DNA of 64,000 nucleotides from an uncultured Fimbriimonadales bacterium (GCA_937992175.1 CALKLF010000012.1:30622-94621), one strand, 5' to 3'; counted from the stretch's first letter, positions 3,004 through 59,430 are shown. A program made the numbers and translations. Notes: generated from the letters alone by a model not told the origin.

Positions 3004-3309
3004 ACCGATCAGGTTTTCAAGTCTCGTGTGTCGTCGGCGGAGACACCGACGAATTGCGACAACTGAAATCCCATTTGATATAACAAGTTGATTTTTGCGC
3101 AAGCCTCGCTATGATTCTGAGCGGAGCGAGGAATCTCGCCAGCCCAAGATCGATAGTCAGCAACTTCGGTTATTATAACGAGCAAATCCCTACCCGGTCT
3201 CTGCACGAAAGGATCGAGGCGCAACTTGCCCGAATTCGGGTCAAATTCGCCCCAAAATCCCTCGAAGTTTAGCAGGAATCCAGCATGGCGTCAGGTAAAT
3301 TAGGCACAA

Positions 3310-3327
3310 CACAGGTGATGACCTGTG
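3310..3327 (+). promoter_or_regulatory. 5'-UTR hairpin before a small gene
   Basis: CACAGGT-gatg-ACCTGTG forms a perfect 7-bp stem. It lies 8 bases after a possible -10 box (TAAATT, 3296-3301) and 12 bases before the strong AGGAGGGAGG ribosome site of the gene at 3351. The layout resembles the hairpin leaders of the dockerin genes, though here the hairpin is not adjacent to the ribosome site. Confidence 0.4.
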
Positions 3328-3350
3328 AATCCATCCATAGGAGGGAGGCT

Positions 3351-3542
3351 ATGCAATTCTACAGCGTGAAAGAGCGCAAGATGGTCGATGTACCTGACAA
3401 TCAGGTGAAGACCCAGAAGTATGAGCGCACCACCAAGTCGGGCAAGAAGCAGGTGCGCTACGCCCTGAAAGCCGAGTACAACGGACAGAAGCTCACGAAG
3501 TTCGTTGACGAGGCGACCTACAAGAAGTTCGGCGGGAAGTAA
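3351..3542 (+). CDS. Small basic conserved-looking protein, function unknown
   Basis: 63 residues starting MQFYSVKERKMVDVP, rich in Lys and Tyr with several short charged segments (KYERTTKSGKKQVRYALKAE). It has no signal peptide and no membrane segment. ATG 3351 is chosen over the track start at 3285 because AGGAGGGAGG lies 2-3 bases upstream and the longer start would read through the leader hairpin. A strong terminator follows at 3559, so this is a one-gene transcript with a well-built leader, which argues that it is real and well expressed. The composition suggests a nucleic-acid-associated or ribosome-associated protein, but that is inference. Confidence 0.75.
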   Translation: MQFYSVKERKMVDVPDNQVKTQKYERTTKSGKKQVRYALKAEYNGQKLTKFVDEATYKKFGGK

Positions 3543-6980: not shown

Positions 6981-8978
6981 CTATCTACTAAACAACGGCG
7001 CAAACACCAGTGCGACGATACTCATCAGCTTGATGAGGATGTTCATGCTGGGACCCGTGGTGTCTTTGAACGGGTCGCCGACGGTGTCGCCCACGACGGC
7101 GGCTTTATGGACATCACTGCCCTTGCCGCCCTCGTGTCCCTCTTCGATATACTTCTTGGCGTTGTCCCACGCGCCGCCCGCGTTCGCCATCATCAAGCCT
7201 GTGACGACGCCCATGCCGAGCGCGCCTGCAAGGAACCCGCCCAGCGCCTCTGCGCCGAGACCGAAGCCCACTGCCAGCGGCGCAATCACCGCAATTGCCC
7301 CGGGCAGAATCATCTCCCGCAGCGACGCGCTGGTCACGATGTCAATACAGCGGTTATAGTCGGGCTTGCCCTTGCCTTCGAGCAGCCCTAGCTCGCGGAA
7401 CTGGCGGCGCACCTCTTCCACCATCTGGTCGGAAGCGCGGCTGACCGCTTTGAGCGTGAGCGCGGCGAACAGGCTCGGCATCGCAATTCCGACGAGCAAG
7501 CCAATCAGCGTGAACGGGTTCACAAGGTTAATCGTCTGCAGTCCTGTCTGGCTCTGGTAGGCGGCGAAGAGCGCGAGGGCGGTCAGCGCCGCGCTGCCAA
7601 TCGCGAAGCCCTTGCCAATCGCAGCGGTGGTGTTGCCCAGCGAGTCGAGCTTGTCGGTGATTTTGCGCACACTCTCGCCGAAGCCCGCCACCTCCGCGAT
7701 TCCGCCTGCGTTGTCGGCTATCGGACCGTAGCTGTCGGTGCTCATCACGATTCCAATCGTCGCGAGCATCCCGACGCCCGCCAGCGCGATACCGTATAGC
7801 CCGTTCGTCTCGAAGGCAATCCAGATTGCCGCCGCGATGCCCAGCAAGGGCAACACGGTGCTGAGATAGCCGACGCCTATCCCTGACAGGATATTCGGCG
7901 CGACGCCAAAGCGCGACGATTTCGCAATCTCACGGATGGGCGGACCGCTGGTGTAGTACTGGCTCACCGCACCAATGAACACGCCCGCAAACAGCCCTGC
8001 CAGCACCGCCCAGTAGGGCGCGAGGCTGCCCACCAGCGCGTTCGTGATGAACGCTCCGCCCACCAAAAACAGCAAAATCGAGATGATGGTGGAGCCATTC
8101 AGCGCAAGCTGCGGATCCATGCTGCGAAACACGCGAATCGAGAACACGCCCAGCACCGACGCGATTAGTCCAAACGCAATAAGCGCGAGGGGCAGAATAA
8201 TATACGGCAGCGGGTTGTCACTATAAAAGGTCACGGCAATTACGGCGGCGGCAATCACCGAGCCGACATAGCTTTCAAAGAGATCCGCGCCCATGCCTGC
8301 CGTATCACCCACATTGTCGCCCACATTATCGGCAAGCACGGCGGGATTACGCGGATCGTCTTCGGGGATGCCCGCCTCTACCTTGCCCACGAGGTCCGCC
8401 CCGACATCGGCGGCTTTGGTGTAAATCCCGCCACCCACGCGGGCGAACAACGCGACGGACGACGCGCCCATCGAGTAGCCTGTGAGGTACTGCGCGAGCG
8501 TCGCCAAGTTCGCTTGCCCCAGTAAGATAATCAGCCCGACGCCGAGCAGACCGAGCGCGGCGACCGCCAGACCCATCACCGAGCCGCCCGTGAACGCCAC
8601 CACCAGCGCTTCGCCCATGCCGCCCGTGCGCGCTGCTTCCGTGGAGCGCACGCCGCTGCGCGTGGACGCCTTCATCCCGATAAAGCCCGCCAGCATCGAG
8701 CTGAACGCGCCGAACAGATACGCGCCGCCAATCCACGGCGCACTCTGATAAAACGCGAAGGTCAGCACCGCGAACAGCACAATCGCAAACAGCGTGATCG
8801 CGATATATTCTCGCTTGAGAAAGGTCATCGCGCCGTCATGAATCGCCTGCGCGTAGGTGCGCATCGTCTCGTTGCCGTCAGGTCGGCGCGTGACCATCCA
8901 GTAATTCAATCCTGCTAATAAAATGCCCGCCCCGCCAAGTACGGGAGCGGCGTAGGGAACAAGCTGTAAAACCTCCAT
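6981..8978 (-). CDS. hppA: Membrane-bound ion-translocating pyrophosphatase (probably K+-dependent)
   Basis: 665 residues with about 16 predicted membrane helices. It hydrolyses pyrophosphate and pumps H+ (or Na+) out of the cytoplasm. Diagnostic motifs are DNVGDNVGD followed by [11 protein letters not shown] (near 212-230), the [12 protein letters not shown] motif near the C-terminus and [14 protein letters not shown]. In [21 protein letters not shown] the residue that is Lys in K+-independent enzymes is Ala, which by family knowledge predicts a K+-dependent enzyme. Ion choice (H+ versus Na+) is not decided from sequence here. Start ATG 8978 is chosen because AAGGAGGAGGCGACT precedes it; the track start at 9011 has no such site. 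It appears to be a single-gene unit on the minus strand. Confidence 0.95.
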
Positions 8979-9110
8979 AGTCGCCTCCTCCTTCGTTCTG
9001 TGCGCTTCCAAAACGCGCCGAAAGTATACCCTATGAGGAACCCTGAAGCGACGCAGAGCAAATACTTAACTGCGCGTTCCCCTAGACGGCACAGTAGCCC
9101 GTGAGGAGGC

Positions 9111-39775: not shown

Positions 39776-40483
39776 ATGGCAAAGATACCTGAGGAGTGGT
39801 TGCAGCGCCTCACGCGCCTGTGCTTGGGTGCATGCGTGGCGCACGACGACGCCGAAACTTGCGCCTGCGATATTCTGCTGCGCTACCACCACCGACGCGG
39901 CGTATACCCGTGGGACGAGCCGACGCCTGATGAAAAGCTCCTGCGCCTGCTCGCACGCGATGTCATCGCGGAACACCTGCGCACGCTCGCCCGACGCCGC
40001 CGCTTGGAAGCCGAGTACTGCGCCTGCCTACAACACGCCCACGCCTGCGCCCCCACCCCAATGCAAATGGCGATTGAGAACGCCGACGCCGAGCGGTTCT
40101 ATGCCACGCTGCCGCCGTATCTGCGTCGGACTTTGGAGCTGCTGGACGGGGTATACACCCCTGCCGAGATTGCCGAGCATTTGGGAGTGAGTGTAAACAC
40201 AGTGTACGCCTATCAACAGGAGTTGCGCGTGCATTTCGTAAAATACTTCGACTATGACCCTAGAAATCGGGGGGGTCGTGTCGGTAATTATAGTGGAAGT
40301 GCCTCACAGGGGCTTCCGAGACCAACACAGGAGGTAACCGATGATGAGACGACGGCAGACGATACTGGGTATGATGGCGTTGTCGTTAGCGATAGCGAAC
40401 CTTGTGGCGATGCCCCACACGCTGGCGGCGTTGAGCGAGTTCAGCGGGGGGGGGGGGACAAGTCTGTCTCCCGTGACGAGTAG
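39776..40483 (+). CDS. Small ECF-like sigma/HTH transcription factor, 3' end probably frameshifted
   Basis: As annotated, 235 residues. Residues 1-80 (EEWLQRLTRLCLGACVAHDD, RLLARDVIAEHLRTLARRRR) look like a reduced sigma region 2; ~105-150 (LPPYLRRTLELLDGVYTPAE, IAEHLGVSVNTVYAYQQELR) is a clear region-4-type HTH. After FDYDPRNRGG the sequence turns into residues that are just the next gene's leader in another frame, and the ORF overlaps that gene by 143 bases. A one-base change in the G7 run at 40269-40275 would instead end the protein at TAA 40335-40337, four bases before the next ATG. ATG 39776 is set by GGGGAGGCAGCCG. The real product is probably about 187 residues. Confidence 0.7.
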   Translation: MAKIPEEWLQRLTRLCLGACVAHDDAETCACDILLRYHHRRGVYPWDEPTPDEKLLRLLARDVIAEHLRTLARRRRLEAEYCACLQHAHACAPTPMQMAIENADAERFYATLPPYLRRTLELLDGVYTPAEIAEHLGVSVNTVYAYQQELRVHFVKYFDYDPRNRGGRVGNYSGSASQGLPRPTQEVTDDETTADDTGYDGVVVSDSEPCGDAPHAGGVERVQRGGGDKSVSRDE

Positions 40484-53594: not shown

Positions 53595-55037
53595 CTAACA
53601 GCCGTTGCCAAAGTTGAACAGCACCACCAACAGATCCGCGTCGTCCACCACGCCATCGCCGGTGGCGTCCTCAGGCAGGTTGTTGCCCGTGTTGCCGAAG
53701 GCGAACAGCACTGCCAGCAGGTCAGCGTCGTCCACGCAGCCGTCGAGGTTAATATCGCCGCAGGACAGCGTAATCGTCTGCCCGCGCGATGGGGTCTGCA
53801 GCGTCACCACCGCAGGCACGAACGGGCGACCACGCAGTGTGAAGCGAAACTTGTAGGTTCCTTCATGCGAGTAGCCCACGGGCAGCAGGTTAGGGATGCC
53901 AATCAGCCCTGTGTAGTCCTCCGTCCCGTCCACATTGTTGTAGGTCGGGTCTTTCACAGGCAGGCGGCGCTCCAGCGTAACCAGCAGGTTGTCGTTCTGG
54001 TCGAAGATTTCGATATCCACAATCCAGCCTTCCACGTCGGCGTAGCCGTTGCTGTCGGTGCGCCAGCATTCGGGCAGAACGCGCCCCACAAACAGCGCCT
54101 CGCTGAAGGCTTTGGGCACGCCGACGCCCACCGCCACATTATCGAAGTAGATGTTGCGCACATTGTTCGGGCGCGTATCCGAGAACTGGCGGAAGGTAGG
54201 GGTGGTCATGGTGCGGTTCGGGTTCGGCGCGGTGCGCGTGATGCCGTCGATAACATAGGTGAACCGACGCGGATTTTCGGGCGTACCATCCCCTGTGAGC
54301 CAGATAGCGGCATGATGCCAGCCGCGCGAGCGCGCTGCTTGTCGGAAGTCCGCCCAGCCGCGCGGGTTCATATCCGCCGTAAAAGTGGGCGCGCCGCCAA
54401 TCGCATCAGCGCGGATATTGTAGCGACGGTTGCTCAGTGAGCGGTTGCCCGGTGGCACGCCGCTGTCCGCATCGTAAGGACCAATCGACGGAATCGACTG
54501 CAGCGTTGTGGCGGGGATGCCCGCGTCCAGGTTCGCATACGCGCGGAACTCAGCCATCGCACGCGACGGCCTGCCGTAGCTATCCTCGTCGAAGAACCAG
54601 AACTCGAAGTAGCCCCCGTCGCCGATACGCTGGTCGAGGTTCACATAGTTCGTGCGTGCGGCGTTGGCAAACGACCAGAGCATCTGCACACCGCTGCGCG
54701 CCGCGGGAATGGGATCAGGCTGAGGCAGGAACGGGTCCTGCGCTAGACACGCTAGCGGAATGAAAAACGGATCGGGGTGCGGGTAGGGAATCGCCGTGTT
54801 CACCAGCTGCATATTGGGCCACGCAGGGATACCGTGCCACACATTGAACACGCGGTATAGCGGACTGTTGCCGTCGCACAGGTCGTTATACAGGTCAAAG
54901 GGGTTCGTGTTATTCGGGTCGTTATTGGGGAGCTGTCCCGTGTATGCCTCAAAGTCGTCGGAGAAAATCACTTGCGCATGCAGGACGGCGACCGCCGCCA
55001 GCGCAAACGCGAGAACGCTACTTAGGACGCGTCGCAT
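53595..55037 (-). CDS. Exported protein with dockerin-like C-terminus, function unknown
   Basis: 480 residues. Signal peptide MRRVLSSVLAFALAAVAVLH. IFSDDFEAYTGQLPNNDP and the following beta-rich part (GYFEFWFFDEDSYGRPSRAM, YFDNVAVGVGVP) suggest a concanavalin/laminin-like jelly-roll fold of the type found in surface-binding modules. The C-terminus is GDINLDGCVDDADLLAVLFA plus DATGDGVVDDADLLVVLFNF, ending GNGC. The start is fixed by GAAGGAGGTAGGCT. Its leader has the same box-hairpin-ribosome-site layout as the two dockerin genes at 55223 and 58294. Confidence 0.82.
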   Translation of the reverse strand: MRRVLSSVLAFALAAVAVLHAQVIFSDDFEAYTGQLPNNDPNNTNPFDLYNDLCDGNSPLYRVFNVWHGIPAWPNMQLVNTAIPYPHPDPFFIPLACLAQDPFLPQPDPIPAARSGVQMLWSFANAARTNYVNLDQRIGDGGYFEFWFFDEDSYGRPSRAMAEFRAYANLDAGIPATTLQSIPSIGPYDADSGVPPGNRSLSNRRYNIRADAIGGAPTFTADMNPRGWADFRQAARSRGWHHAAIWLTGDGTPENPRRFTYVIDGITRTAPNPNRTMTTPTFRQFSDTRPNNVRNIYFDNVAVGVGVPKAFSEALFVGRVLPECWRTDSNGYADVEGWIVDIEIFDQNDNLLVTLERRLPVKDPTYNNVDGTEDYTGLIGIPNLLPVGYSHEGTYKFRFTLRGRPFVPAVVTLQTPSRGQTITLSCGDINLDGCVDDADLLAVLFAFGNTGNNLPEDATGDGVVDDADLLVVLFNFGNGC

Positions 55038-55043
55038 AGCCTA

Positions 55044-55081
55044 CCTCCTTCGCAGGCGTTTTTACCTGCATTTTTAGTATA
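55044..55081 (-). promoter_or_regulatory. Dockerin-type leader module: -10 box, hairpin, ribosome site
   Basis: Minus strand: TATACT (55081-55076), six bases, hairpin GCAGG-taaaaacg-CCTGC (55069-55052), immediately GAAGGAGG (55051-55044), then six bases to ATG. The transcript would begin with the hairpin. Confidence 0.55.
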
Positions 55082-55177
55082 CATCGAATTTGGGCGTCTG
55101 GGCGGGGAAGTTAAAGAAACTTAATCGGGTCTCGATGGGAGAGAACCCAGCACTCCCAAAACCCCAGCAAAGTAGTG

Positions 55178-55217
55178 TATAATAGAAATGCGGGGTGAAA
55201 GACCCTGCGAAAGGAGG
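55178..55217 (+). promoter_or_regulatory. Dockerin-type leader module: -10 box, hairpin, ribosome site
   Basis: TATAAT (55178-55183), six bases, hairpin GCGGGGT-gaaag-ACCCTGC (55190-55208, one G-T pair), immediately GAAAGGAGG (55209-55217), then five bases to ATG. Confidence 0.6.
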
Positions 55218-55222
55218 CAACG

Positions 55223-56131
55223 ATGATGAGACGCTATATGCTTGCATTGAGCGCGCTCCTGAGCGTGAGCAGCGCGCTGGCGCAGTGCCTGATTACCGAC
55301 TTCGAGGGCTTCACTCTCGGACTCAACGGCGCAGTCTTGTTCCGCCAACCCAGCTTTTCGGGTTCGACCAGTACCTTTCTCAACGCGCCTGGAAGTTGTG
55401 ATATACCGAACGGACTTTATAACTGTTCCGTGATTTCTGACGAACAGGCGTTTAGCGGAACCCAATCGCTGAAAGTGGCGTGGCTATTCCGCTTGAACCC
55501 GGACACCAATCAACCCTACCCCAACGCCTGGCTCCGCCTGACCACTTTCAACATCCCGAACATCCCCAACCCCGCGATCAGCTTTGACCACAAAGTGCGC
55601 GTGCGCTTGTATGTGCCTTCCGACACGCCCGACTTTTACCTAACGCTGGGCGTGCGCGAGACGGGCACTAACGCAAGTTGCGGCGGCAACGGCGGCACTA
55701 CTGGGGGAATCGAATGGATTGGCGCGACGAGCTCGCAAGGTAATAACGCGCCTGTTGGCAAGCTCATCAACCAGAAAGAACAGTGGCTAACGGTGACTTT
55801 CAACATTCGCTGTGAACCCGTCCGAGCGTTTGCAGGTTCTACAGCGAACGGCACGCTCGATGGCAGCACAGGCGCGCTGGAACAACTCGCGTTCACTCCC
55901 GTTGACCCTGCCAACTTGGGTCCCTATATCGTCTATATCGATGATGTGGAGACGATTGCGGTACAGCCCGGCGATGTGGACGACAACGGTTGCGTGGACG
56001 ACGCCGACCTGCTGCAGGTGCTGTTCGCGTTCGGTTCGGAGGGTTCCAACCCTGCCGATGTGAACTGCGACGGAGTCGTAGATGATGCTGACCTGCTGAT
56101 TGTGCTGTTCAACTTCGGCACTGGGTGCTGA
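55223..56131 (+). CDS. Exported protein with dockerin-like C-terminus, function unknown
   Basis: 302 residues. Signal peptide MMRRYMLALSALLSVSSALA, then CLITDFEGFTLGLNGAVLF and a beta-sandwich-like body (DHKVRVRLYVPSDTPDFYLT, PYIVYIDDVETIA) that recalls carbohydrate-binding jelly rolls. The C-terminus is GDVDDNGCVDDADLLQVLFA and ADVNCDGVVDDADLLIVLFN, ending FGTGC. It differs from its relatives in having an extra Cys in loop 2 (NCDG). It is divergent from the dockerin gene at 53595, both with the hairpin leader. Confidence 0.82.
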   Translation: MMRRYMLALSALLSVSSALAQCLITDFEGFTLGLNGAVLFRQPSFSGSTSTFLNAPGSCDIPNGLYNCSVISDEQAFSGTQSLKVAWLFRLNPDTNQPYPNAWLRLTTFNIPNIPNPAISFDHKVRVRLYVPSDTPDFYLTLGVRETGTNASCGGNGGTTGGIEWIGATSSQGNNAPVGKLINQKEQWLTVTFNIRCEPVRAFAGSTANGTLDGSTGALEQLAFTPVDPANLGPYIVYIDDVETIAVQPGDVDDNGCVDDADLLQVLFAFGSEGSNPADVNCDGVVDDADLLIVLFNFGTGC

Positions 56132-56138
56132 AGAGGGT

Positions 56139-56178
56139 ACACTGGGTGCGAAGGCAGGAATCGCATCGCACCCAGTGT
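56139..56178 (+). terminator. Long hairpin behind a dockerin gene
   Basis: ACACTGGGTGCGA (56139-56151) pairs perfectly with TCGCACCCAGTGT (56166-56178). No T-run follows, so it may be an mRNA 3'-end stabiliser or a member of the palindrome families rather than a classic terminator. It begins 8 bases after the stop codon. Confidence 0.45.
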
Positions 56179-56225
56179 GTCGCGTTGGTGCGCCCCCTAA
56201 GCCTCCCAACGGTGTTTATAGTGGG

Positions 56226-56231
56226 TATAAT
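56226..56231 (+). promoter_or_regulatory. -10 box for tRNA-Arg
   Basis: TATAAT in GTGGGTATAATCATAG, about 35 bases before the tRNA. Confidence 0.45.
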
Positions 56232-56265
56232 CATAGGCGACCATACTCCGAAAGGTTCACCCTGC

Positions 56266-56341
56266 GCCCCCGTAGCTCAATGGACAGAGCAGCGGCCTTC
56301 TAAGCCGTTGGTTGTGGGTTCGAGTCCCGCCGGGGGCGCCA
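56266..56341 (+). tRNA. tRNA-Arg (anticodon TCT)
   Basis: 76 bases with CCA encoded. Acceptor stem GCCCCCG/CGGGGGC, D-arm GCTC-AATGGACA-GAGC, anticodon loop CTTCTAA (anticodon TCT, reads AGA/AGG) on stem GCGGC/GCCGT, T-arm GTGGG-TTCGAGT-CCCGC. All arms pair. It ends 4 bases from the convergent GH127 stop codon. Confidence 0.95.
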
Positions 56342-56345
56342 AGTC

Positions 56346-58202
56346 TTACACTGCAGGCATCCACACGCGCATTGGGCACGGACGGCGATGGTCCCACGCA
56401 TAGTACGGGATTGCGCGGAACGGTTTGAGCGGTCGCTCACGCAGGGGGCGGTAGAGCATGTTGCCCCACGCCGTATCGTCTTCCAGCAACTCTGCCATGC
56501 CCTCAACCACCACGACGCCGTTCAAGAGTTCAGGCTCCCATAGGCTATGGAGTGGATGGTCGCGTCGAATCGCCAGATGCGTGAGCGGCGCGGGCTGGTC
56601 TTGCTCTTCAAGGCAGTAGACGATGGGGCCGCGCTGAATCGCGACTTGCCAGCGATCCGCTTCCACGCGCGGGTGCGCCTCCATCAGCACGGGGGTCATC
56701 GGCAGGCGCAGATCGACAGCGTCGCCCGCTTTCCACTCGCGCTCAATAACAGCGTAGCCGTCCTCGCGCCGAACAGCGACAGGCTCTCCGTTCAAGCGCA
56801 GTTCAGGCGCGTCGCACCACGCAGGGAGCCGCAGCATGAGCTTGAACCGCCCCGCGGCGCTCTCGACGACGCGCAGGGCGACCGATTCTTGCCACGGATA
56901 GCCCGTGCGCACTTCCAGCCTTAGAGGTTTGCCGTTCAGCGTTGCCCGCACGCGCCCGCCGATGTAGAGATTCACATAAAACGCTTGGTCGCCTTGCGCG
57001 TAGATGTAATCGCCCAGCGAGGCGAGCAAGCGAGCAATGTTCGGCGGACAGCAGGCACAGCCATACCACGCCTTGCGATGGTGCGTCCCGTCGCTCTCCA
57101 ACGGGTTCACATAGAAAAAGCGTTTGCCATCCAGCGAGATCCCTGCCAGTGCGCCGTTATACAGGGCGCGTTCCAGCGCGTCATAAAAGCGCGCCTCACC
57201 CAGCAGCAGTCCCAGCCGATGCGCCCACAAAATCAACGCCACCGACGCGCAGGTCTCCTGATACGCCGTGCGGTTCGGCAGTTCATAGTCGGCGGTGAAC
57301 CCCTCGTGTTTGGGTTCGTTGCCGATGCCGCCCGTGATGTAGCTGCGCCTGTTAATCGTGTTGTCCCACACGCGCAGCAGCATCTGAATCAGACGCTCGC
57401 GCAGCGTGGCGTCGTCCGTATACGCCGCGAGGTCGGTCGCCCCAGCGAACAGGTACGCCGCGCGCACCGCGTGCCCCACTATCTCCCGATGCTCCAACAG
57501 GGGCAGGTTGTCTTGCCAGATGGAGCCGTCGTACTGCTCCAGCGGGATGTTGTGTTCCTGAGCAAAGATTTTTTTGCCCCGATTCAACAAGAAGAATTCG
57601 GCGAGTTTGGCATAGCGCGCCTCCCCTGTCGCGTGATACAGCCGAAACAGCGCAAGTTCAATCTCTGGATGACCGCAATACCCCAATCGCTTGCCCTCGC
57701 CAAATACCGAATCGATGTAATCGGCGAAGCGTCGGGCGATGTTCAGCAAGCGTTCGCTGCCTGTCGCGTGATAGTGCGCGACTGCAGCCTCAATCAAGTG
57801 TCCTGCGCAATAGAGTTCGTGCCAGTCGCGGAGGTTGCTCCAGCGTTTATCGGGGGCAACCACCTGAAAATAGCTGTTCAGGTAGCCATCGGGCTGCTGC
57901 GCCCGCTCCAGAATATCGATGACCTCGTCCACCTTGGCGCGAATGGGGTCGTCGGGGTGCTGTTTTAGCACATAGGCGGCGGCTTCGAGGGCTTTGTAGA
58001 GGTCAGAGTCCATATACACAGGTCCCTGATACCCTTCGCATTTGCCATCGGCAGCGAGGCGCAGGTTCGGGATGTTGCCCGCCCGTTCCAACTCCTCAAA
58101 TAAATGGGGGAGCGTCGCGGCGCGGTTCACCTGCTGCCGCTTCGCCCAGAAAGCGTCGTCGATTTCAACCTGTGCGAATGAGATGGAGCGTAGCCGTTTC
58201 AT
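56346..58202 (-). CDS. Glycoside hydrolase family 127-like (beta-L-arabinofuranosidase/DUF1680)
   Basis: 618 residues from ATG 58202 (MKRLRSISFAQVEIDDAFWA); the 88 extra residues of the track ORF come from the opposite gene's DNA. Motifs are GYQGPVYMDSDLYKALEAAA, RAQQPDGYLNSYF, HELYCAGHLIEAAVAHYHAT, NRTAYQETCASVALILWAHR and the zinc/nucleophile Cys cluster WYGCACCPPNIARLLASLGD (~383-402). No signal peptide, so it acts in the cytoplasm on imported arabinose-containing oligosaccharides (family knowledge). A TATCCT box 7 bases before the start suggests a leaderless mRNA. Confidence 0.92.
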   Translation of the reverse strand: MKRLRSISFAQVEIDDAFWAKRQQVNRAATLPHLFEELERAGNIPNLRLAADGKCEGYQGPVYMDSDLYKALEAAAYVLKQHPDDPIRAKVDEVIDILERAQQPDGYLNSYFQVVAPDKRWSNLRDWHELYCAGHLIEAAVAHYHATGSERLLNIARRFADYIDSVFGEGKRLGYCGHPEIELALFRLYHATGEARYAKLAEFFLLNRGKKIFAQEHNIPLEQYDGSIWQDNLPLLEHREIVGHAVRAAYLFAGATDLAAYTDDATLRERLIQMLLRVWDNTINRRSYITGGIGNEPKHEGFTADYELPNRTAYQETCASVALILWAHRLGLLLGEARFYDALERALYNGALAGISLDGKRFFYVNPLESDGTHHRKAWYGCACCPPNIARLLASLGDYIYAQGDQAFYVNLYIGGRVRATLNGKPLRLEVRTGYPWQESVALRVVESAAGRFKLMLRLPAWCDAPELRLNGEPVAVRREDGYAVIEREWKAGDAVDLRLPMTPVLMEAHPRVEADRWQVAIQRGPIVYCLEEQDQPAPLTHLAIRRDHPLHSLWEPELLNGVVVVEGMAELLEDDTAWGNMLYRPLRERPLKPFRAIPYYAWDHRRPCPMRVWMPAV

Positions 58203-58209
58203 CGGCGAT

Positions 58210-58215
58210 AGGATA
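58210..58215 (-). promoter_or_regulatory. Possible -10 box of a leaderless promoter for GH127
   Basis: Minus-strand TATCCT in GCGGGTATCCTATCGCCG, 7 bases before ATG 58202. A weaker match than the others. Confidence 0.3.
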
Positions 58216-58249
58216 CCCGCTCTTAACCACCTCTTAAAAATAGACAAGG

Positions 58250-58288
58250 TATACTCCAAATCGGCTCGACGCACGAGCCGAAAGGAGG
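58250..58288 (+). promoter_or_regulatory. Dockerin-type leader module: -10 box, hairpin, ribosome site
   Basis: TATACT (58250-58255), six bases, hairpin CGGCTCG-acgca-CGAGCCG (58262-58280), immediately AAAGGAGG (58281-58288), then five bases to ATG. The spacing matches the modules at 55044 and 55178, while stem sequences differ. Confidence 0.6.
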
Positions 58289-58293
58289 CTACT

Positions 58294-59430
58294 ATGGTAA
58301 GAACTACGATTGCTTTGGGCTTAGCGAGTGTGCTTGTAGCGACGACCTGCGCCCAAGTGGTGCTGGGCGATAACAAGGGTAAAGTGCGTAAGACGAATGC
58401 GCTGGCGGATGTTAGTACCGCCGAGCAACCCCTGCAGTGGAGCCGCCGCGACTTCCAGGATAGCACGAACCTTGAAGTCTTTGGCTTCTACCCTGCGTAC
58501 ACAATCCAAGTAGACGCAGCATTATTCGACGCCGACGGGAATAATGTAGGCGTTGGCGGCGATGCGACACCTGTGCCCATCACTACAGTGGACTCGCTGG
58601 TGAACAACTTGGGCTGGCCCAGCTCTTTCACTGTGCCTCGCTTCCTGTTCCGTCAGGGCGGCGCGTACACCAACGAGAACGGTTTTCGGGGCGATCGCCG
58701 ACTGTACGGACCCGTGTGGATTAAGTACGAGTTGGACGACAGCAACCCGAACGGCTGGAATGTGGTCAAGGTGCAGGTGTTCGCGTGGGATGTGCGCGAC
58801 CTGCTGCACAAATCCAGCTCTACCAAGACTCGCCCCTTCTCTGATACGGGCGCGCCCTACCGCATCGATGTCTATGTGGCGCAGAACGACCCGAACCCTG
58901 CCAGCGACCCCGCTTCCGATTCCAACTGGACATTCGTCGGCACGCTGAGCAAGGCGGACGGCACGCTGCCCAATGTGTGCCAGTGGGATCCCAGCACGGG
59001 CAACACCTTCGGCGAGTGCCCCCAAGCGACCATCGACTACCTCAACGGCAACAACCCGCGGAACCTGAAGTTCTACGAAGACCCGACGAACGAGATTTGG
59101 TACTCCACCCTGCGCGTGCGCGGTCAGAGCGGCATCAAATATGTCGCGCTGGTAATCCCGCAGGGCAATCAGTATAACAACGACCCCGACCTCGTTGCTT
59201 CTGACCGTGTGGCGAACTCCCTGCGCTACACCAACTTCACCGATGTGCGCGTGATTGCAGGCGTGGAGGGCGATGTGGACGGCAACGGGTGCGTGGATGA
59301 CGCCGACCTGTTGCAGGTGCTGTTCAACTTCGGCGCGACGGGCGCGAACGACGCCGATGTGAACGGCGACAACATCGTCGACGACGCGGATCTGTTGATT
59401 GTGCTGTTCAACTTCGGTACAGGCTGCTAA
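58294..59430 (+). CDS. Exported protein with dockerin-like C-terminus, function unknown
   Basis: 378 residues. Signal peptide MVRTTIALGLASVLVATTCA. The body (RFLFRQGGAYTNENGFRGDR, WNVVKVQVFAWDVRDLLH, RIDVYVAQNDPNPA) is beta-rich with many Asn/Asp and no known catalytic motif. The C-terminus is GDVDGNGCVDDADLLQVLFN and ADVNGDNIVDDADLLIVLFN, ending FGTGC. ATG 58294 is set by AAAGGAGGCTACT; the track start at 58042 runs antisense through GH127. It is divergent from GH127, whose sugar role may hint at a shared theme. Confidence 0.83.
   Translation: MVRTTIALGLASVLVATTCAQVVLGDNKGKVRKTNALADVSTAEQPLQWSRRDFQDSTNLEVFGFYPAYTIQVDAALFDADGNNVGVGGDATPVPITTVDSLVNNLGWPSSFTVPRFLFRQGGAYTNENGFRGDRRLYGPVWIKYELDDSNPNGWNVVKVQVFAWDVRDLLHKSSSTKTRPFSDTGAPYRIDVYVAQNDPNPASDPASDSNWTFVGTLSKADGTLPNVCQWDPSTGNTFGECPQATIDYLNGNNPRNLKFYEDPTNEIWYSTLRVRGQSGIKYVALVIPQGNQYNNDPDLVASDRVANSLRYTNFTDVRVIAGVEGDVDGNGCVDDADLLQVLFNFGATGANDADVNGDNIVDDADLLIVLFNFGTGC

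Follow-up and report, generated by a model that had tools for sequence, protein, structure and literature searches.

A compact promoter-hairpin-Shine-Dalgarno leader, probably mRNA-stabilising, ahead of exported-protein genes in an uncultured Fimbriimonadales bacterium

Single stabilising 5' hairpins are textbook matter in Escherichia coli and Bacillus. The 5'-terminal stem-loops of the E. coli ompA and papA messages are described as mRNA stabilisers (Emory et al. 1992 and Bricker & Belasco 1999, both as cited in PMC3997798), their known mechanism being protection from RppH/RNase E-dependent decay, and in the B. subtilis aprE leader (Hambraeus et al. 2002, as cited in PMC3997798) a 5' stem-loop together with strong ribosome binding gives the mRNA of a secreted protein extreme stability. 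The stability of the ompA and aprE mRNAs depends on a strong Shine-Dalgarno sequence (SD) as well (PMC7509114). A 5' hairpin also stabilises bla mRNA and impedes RppH, the B. subtilis RppH requires at least two unpaired 5' nucleotides, and long mRNAs are stabilised by 5' hairpins or ribosome-binding sites (PMC3997798). Here we describe a leader of comparable build in the draft genome (2.83 Mb) of an uncultured Fimbriimonadales bacterium, whose named relatives, KatS3mg018 and JP3_11 among them, are hot-spring members of the Fimbriimonadales (phylum Armatimonadota). The window, a stretch of 64,000 nucleotides (C12:30622-94621), carries it before three genes starting at 55037 (minus strand), 55223 and 58294 (both plus strand). 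As in ompA and papA, the hairpin lies at the predicted extreme 5' end of a message for an outer-membrane or surface protein; unlike those single genes with their longer leaders, the layout here is compact, with -10 hexamer, 6 nt, hairpin and SD following one another within about 30-40 nt, and it stands before many unrelated exported genes with different stems. The aprE leader likewise pairs a 5' stem-loop with strong ribosome binding, but aprE is a single gene whose protection is framed around RNase J/Y, whereas here we see a set of genes in a host that has RNase E/G and RNase Y and yielded no match to RNase J. What stands out is that a whole lineage in a poorly studied phylum apparently uses one fixed promoter-hairpin-SD layout for its exported proteins, and that evolutionary comparison supports the structure; our literature search returned no described genome-wide 5'-hairpin system on exported genes and no transcription-start maps in Armatimonadota.

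The three leaders can be read directly from the sequence. For the gene at 55037 (53595..55037, minus strand; 480 aa, C-terminal ...DDADLLVVLFNFGNGC), TATACT (55076..55081) is followed by AAAAAT, the predicted hairpin GCAGG-taaaaacg-CCTGC (55052..55069), the directly abutting SD GAAGGAGG (55044..55051), 6 nt and ATG, and a covariance model described below matches 55044-55081 on this strand. The gene at 55223 (55223..56131, plus strand; 302 aa) is preceded by TATAAT (55178..55183), AGAAAT, GCGGGGT-gaaag-ACCCTGC with one G.U pair (55190..55208), GAAAGGAGG (55209..55217) and 5 nt, and the gene at 58294 (58294..59430, plus strand; 378 aa) by TATACT (58250..58255), CCAAAT, CGGCTCG-acgca-CGAGCCG (58262..58280), AAAGGAGG (58281..58288) and 5 nt; the covariance model matches at both promoters. 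The fold z-scores of the hairpins, with mononucleotide shuffles as reference, are -7.1 (55037), -5.0 and -5.0. The N-termini of all three proteins resemble signal peptides, and their C-termini carry the motif ...DDADLLxVLFNFGxGC. A fourth good case within the window (8987..9028, minus strand) comprises TATACT, 7 nt, CGTTTTG-gaagcgca-CAGAACG and AAGGAGG before a membrane H+-pyrophosphatase gene starting at 8978. The earlier note on this stretch, which did not list this fourth copy, had called the other three the same to the base, as they are, and had ascribed a looser version to the gene at 3351; there, ACAGGT-gatg-ACCTGT indeed lies 9 nt past TAAATT (3300-3351) with the SD far away, and the product is a non-exported protein of 63 aa.

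The module recurs in the genome, a point that the earlier note had proposed to check. The pattern TATAMT-N18-36-AAGGAGG yielded 14 matches in the 2.83 Mb as opposed to one for the reversed pattern, and TATA-N18-45-AGGAGG-N3-9-ATG yielded 56 as opposed to one; in most of the 14 a stem-loop begins 6-7 nt past the -10, and many TATA-SD leaders, when folded, show a hairpin that starts about six bases past the hexamer. Besides these genome-wide searches, 1.1 Mb of sampled stretches was examined, part of it chosen around TATA-SD matches and part not. Here each TATAMT preceding an SD and an open frame was scanned for stems of at least 5 bp at offsets 0-39, with shuffled leaders as control: 24 stems start at offsets 5-8 (4.0 in shuffles) with a peak at offset 6 (n=10), and 16 at offsets 12-30 (12 in shuffles). 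Taken by itself, the part of the sample not picked via TATA-SD matches gave 12 stem starts against 1.6 in shuffles. Placing the hexamer at -12 to -7 makes offset 6 position +1, and the stem is thus predicted to begin with the transcript; judged from sequence position, stems 6-7 nt past the -10 sit at the expected +1/+2, where the earlier note had placed them. Among 46 leaders from this genome and its relatives, which unlike the offset histograms were partly selected by offset, the offsets are mostly 5-8 and cluster at 6-7, while anything from about 0 to 21 nt separates hairpin and SD. It is the -10, not the SD, that fixes the place of the hairpin; the SD lies outside the stem, and the tight layout of the three genes is one end of a broader leader set.

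This geometry bears on a translation-side role, in which the hairpin would insulate the SD from pairing with upstream or coding sequence, or serve the 30S subunit as a standby or positioning site, with stability secondary. In about ten leaders of this genome the stem ends 0-3 nt ahead of the SD, which is very strong and itself unpaired by the stem, as such a role would have it. In other leaders, however (a pilin-like gene, a lipoprotein and other exported genes), the SD is 7-21 nt off and the hairpin start is about unchanged, and when the leaders are folded with 5' coding sequence at 37 °C the SD becomes partly paired (unpaired probability 0.25-0.39), so that the hairpin alone does not keep it free. 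We regard this role as unlikely.

Homologues carry the evidence that the structure itself is kept. The gene at 58294 has homologues, at 66-80% identity, both across the genus and among other genera of its family, and their leaders hold hairpins in register that end 0-3 nt before the SD and are built from different arms (CGGCTCG/CGAGCCG, GGTTCGC/GCGAACC, CGGCTTGG/CCGAGCCG, GGGC/GCCC, GGGT/ACCC and others). When arms were swapped among 12 of these homologues, folding energies averaged -9.9 kcal/mol for native halves and -6.1 for mixed ones, and 0 of 5000 random re-pairings were as stable as the natural one; the corresponding counts were 72 of 40320 in the DVUA0089 family and 150 of 5000 in the H+-pyrophosphatase family. 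Three homologues of the gene at 55223 have three different stems, GCAGGC/GCCTGC and CAGGGC/GCCCTG among them, and homologues of the gene at 55037 with leaders are present in the genomes G010 and G011. An alignment of 22 distinct leaders that was fitted by the model, and leans towards its own structure, shows both-sided changes in 7 of 7 pairs; its covariation score was reached by 0 of 500 shuffles, and the signal disappeared when the partner was slid by one column. A MAFFT alignment of the homologues misplaces the stem columns and therefore gave just one covarying pair, a result not above that of column shuffles. Two further genera of the family, more distant ones (L116, L117), have homologues of 58294 whose leaders are instead unstructured and A-rich. 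Comparison of the leaders thus indicates that the hairpin is a conserved RNA structure under selection in which pairing rather than sequence is kept, in agreement with the proposal that structure, not stem sequence, is what the three genes share, and the compensatory changes looked for in orthologous leaders are found in the 12 homologues of 58294.

Two accounts lose most of their ground at this point. One is that a GC-rich initial transcribed sequence of strong promoters folds by chance and has no selected RNA function; exported genes and strong promoters are indeed confounded, yet the compensatory changes, the arm swaps and the shuffle control speak against a mere by-product, and we give this account hardly any credence. 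The other takes the hairpin for a DNA inverted repeat at the start site, bound by a repressor or activator. Inverted repeats at +1 are common operator positions, and the 58294 promoter has in addition an upstream 11-bp direct repeat. The stems, however, differ in sequence among genes and share no half-site, the loops measure 3-9 nt, stem length varies even among homologues, and about 7 of about 10 deep internal non-Watson-Crick positions are G.U, which is tolerated in RNA and a mismatch in a DNA palindrome; an operator is very improbable. The earlier note had also offered a protein-bound leader, and a sequence-specific binding protein is unlikely because stems and loops vary in sequence and size.

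The genes behind the hairpins mostly encode exported proteins. When strong-SD genes were sorted by a simple rule for signal peptides, 17 of the 19 led by a hairpin had signal-peptide-like products, compared with 88 of the remaining 308 (Fisher p 1.5e-7), an enrichment that the earlier note had suggested looking for. The leader set includes lipoproteins, a pilin-like protein, a DVUA0089-family protein and the membrane H+-pyrophosphatase. The claim that the module belongs to exported dockerin genes stands as to the signal-peptide-like N-termini and less so as to the dockerins. The protein at 55223 scores 19.1 bits with Pfam Dockerin_1 (curated cut-off 22.9) and 16.4 with the NCBIfam GC-type dockerin (cut-off 29), other hairpin genes score 19-25 with the latter, and the proteins at 55037 and 58294 match no domain model at E 0.01, though their C-termini look alike. 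A restriction to dockerin genes was rejected: the leader precedes roughly 9 of about 32 dockerin-like genes in the 1.1 Mb sample, and many genes with the hairpin encode something else. As an observation in its own right, ...DDADLLxVLFNFGxGC tails occur on about 32 exported proteins in the 1.1 Mb and also in relatives, and resemble the GC-type dockerin anchor NF041540 below its cut-off; judging by the motif, they are possibly an undescribed subtype of surface-sorting tag.

The distribution was followed with covariance models, for which coding sequence was not visible. The first model, R1, was skewed to homologues of 58294; a second, R2, built from 24 leaders, generalised. Matches were found in 17 of 18 family genomes (E<=0.5; about 0.5 chance matches per genome expected), with 1-9 each and 9 in our genome, and one weak match in 200 other genomes of the phylum, a search made at E 0.05 and with stricter filters, so that the two differ. 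Nearly all matches in relatives with a readable gene stand before signal-peptide or H+-pyrophosphatase genes. Given these counts, the cassette is a lineage-level feature of one Armatimonadota family, clearest in our genome.

By analogy with ompA and aprE, we put a probability of roughly 0.6 on the reading that a 5'-terminal mRNA-stabilising stem-loop and a strong SD form a promoter-leader cassette for exported proteins, with an effect on decay that we infer; protecting the message from decay is the most likely role of the hairpin. Enzymes that strip the 5' triphosphate, and RNases whose attack depends on the 5' end, require a few unpaired nucleotides there. Initiation of the sigma-70 type would take place at the first or second stem base and produce an mRNA without a free 5' end, whose paired end would resist both loss of the triphosphate and access by RNase E/G through 5' sensing. 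Next to it, the strong SD would keep the start site occupied by a 30S subunit or a ribosome, ribosomes would be loaded at once, and the resulting mRNAs would be long-lived and heavily translated into abundant surface proteins. We favour this stabilising-hairpin reading because it explains why the hairpin is anchored to the -10, why its distance to the SD is free, why stem sequence does not matter, and why abundant exported proteins have it. Of the readings offered earlier, strong and stable production of surface proteins fits best. The decay machinery of the genome comprises two RNase E/G genes and RNase Y, with no match to RNase J. The RNase E/G aligns with E. coli RNase E, GLI(L/V)RT included, in which Arg-Thr is the known 5' sensor, and the host is accordingly predicted to have a 5'-end-sensing decay enzyme. 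The two RNase E/G genes (G000:C27:8135-8944 and G000:C80:2249-3061) are very similar, and reflect either a recent duplication or a mixed assembly.

Another account is an RNA thermometer, which the earlier note had suggested, or a metabolite- or protein-gated leader governing SD access. The hairpin adjoins the SD, the setting is thermophilic, and RNA thermometers such as ROSE and fourU likewise have short leaders with a hairpin close to the SD. Unlike in those, the SD here lies 3' of the stem and unsequestered in all three leaders, the gap between stem and SD ranges over 0-21 nt in the wider set, the stems of 55223 and 58294 are predicted to remain folded at 65-75 °C, and there is no conserved loop or alternative fold. 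In an Rfam covariance-model search no family matched the leaders (the only hits, at 56266-56339 and hence away from them, were a tRNA and a match below threshold), and a known Rfam cis-regulatory element was set aside. A gate of this kind is highly improbable.

Several observations weigh against the stabilising-hairpin reading or narrow it. Compared with promoter-bearing genes without a hairpin, the excess of signal peptides shrinks to 17 of 19 versus 6 of 11 (p 0.07), and with stricter stems to 13 of 15 versus 10 of 15 (p 0.39); this enrichment is only suggestive, and strong promoters and export are therefore partly confounded. Start-site hairpins are also present on two cytoplasmic genes (atpD-like and ndk), which makes export a tendency and no rule. 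In 400 kb of the same-genus genome G010 the TATAMT offsets show no peak (3 versus 2.2 in shuffles), its homologues retaining hairpins behind weaker -10s. From 65 °C upwards the stem of 55037 should, by prediction, be mostly open, the arms of the C51 family are too similar for the swap test, RppH was not identified in the genome, and the stabilising role is one we infer for an uncultured lineage. A bolder proposal, that many unrelated exported-protein genes acquired a standard hairpin-SD leader whose structure is recognised by a dedicated factor or the decay machinery, which would jointly set mRNA stability, timing or localisation as a lineage-specific, secretome-wide post-transcriptional regulon of the cell surface, strikes us as improbable. 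With the layout described here, 5'-end protection becomes testable as a genome-wide strategy, compact ready-made leaders come to hand for expression in thermophiles, and a sequence signature is available to predict abundant surface proteins in uncultured Armatimonadota.

Further patterns were noted at the promoters. The direct repeat upstream of the 58294 promoter (CTTAAC-N5-CTTAAA, 58222..58237, plus strand, 11-bp period, Pho-box-like) is kept in homologues, and CTTAA-N6-CTTAA occurs at seven other places in the 1.1 Mb, with eight cases at N6 versus at most one at any other spacing from 2 to 13. In most cases the repeats lie shortly before the -10, mostly ahead of exported or pilin-like genes, and are putative Pho-box-like response-regulator sites. 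At two promoters (window ~40289-40312 and G000:C61:29178) TATAGT is directly followed by GGAAGYGC...GCTTCC, an inverted repeat that is identical at both, unlike the variable hairpins, and may be an operator. Finally, near-identical pilin-like N-termini are found on different genes at many loci, e.g. L031:3512, L024, L081 and L093.

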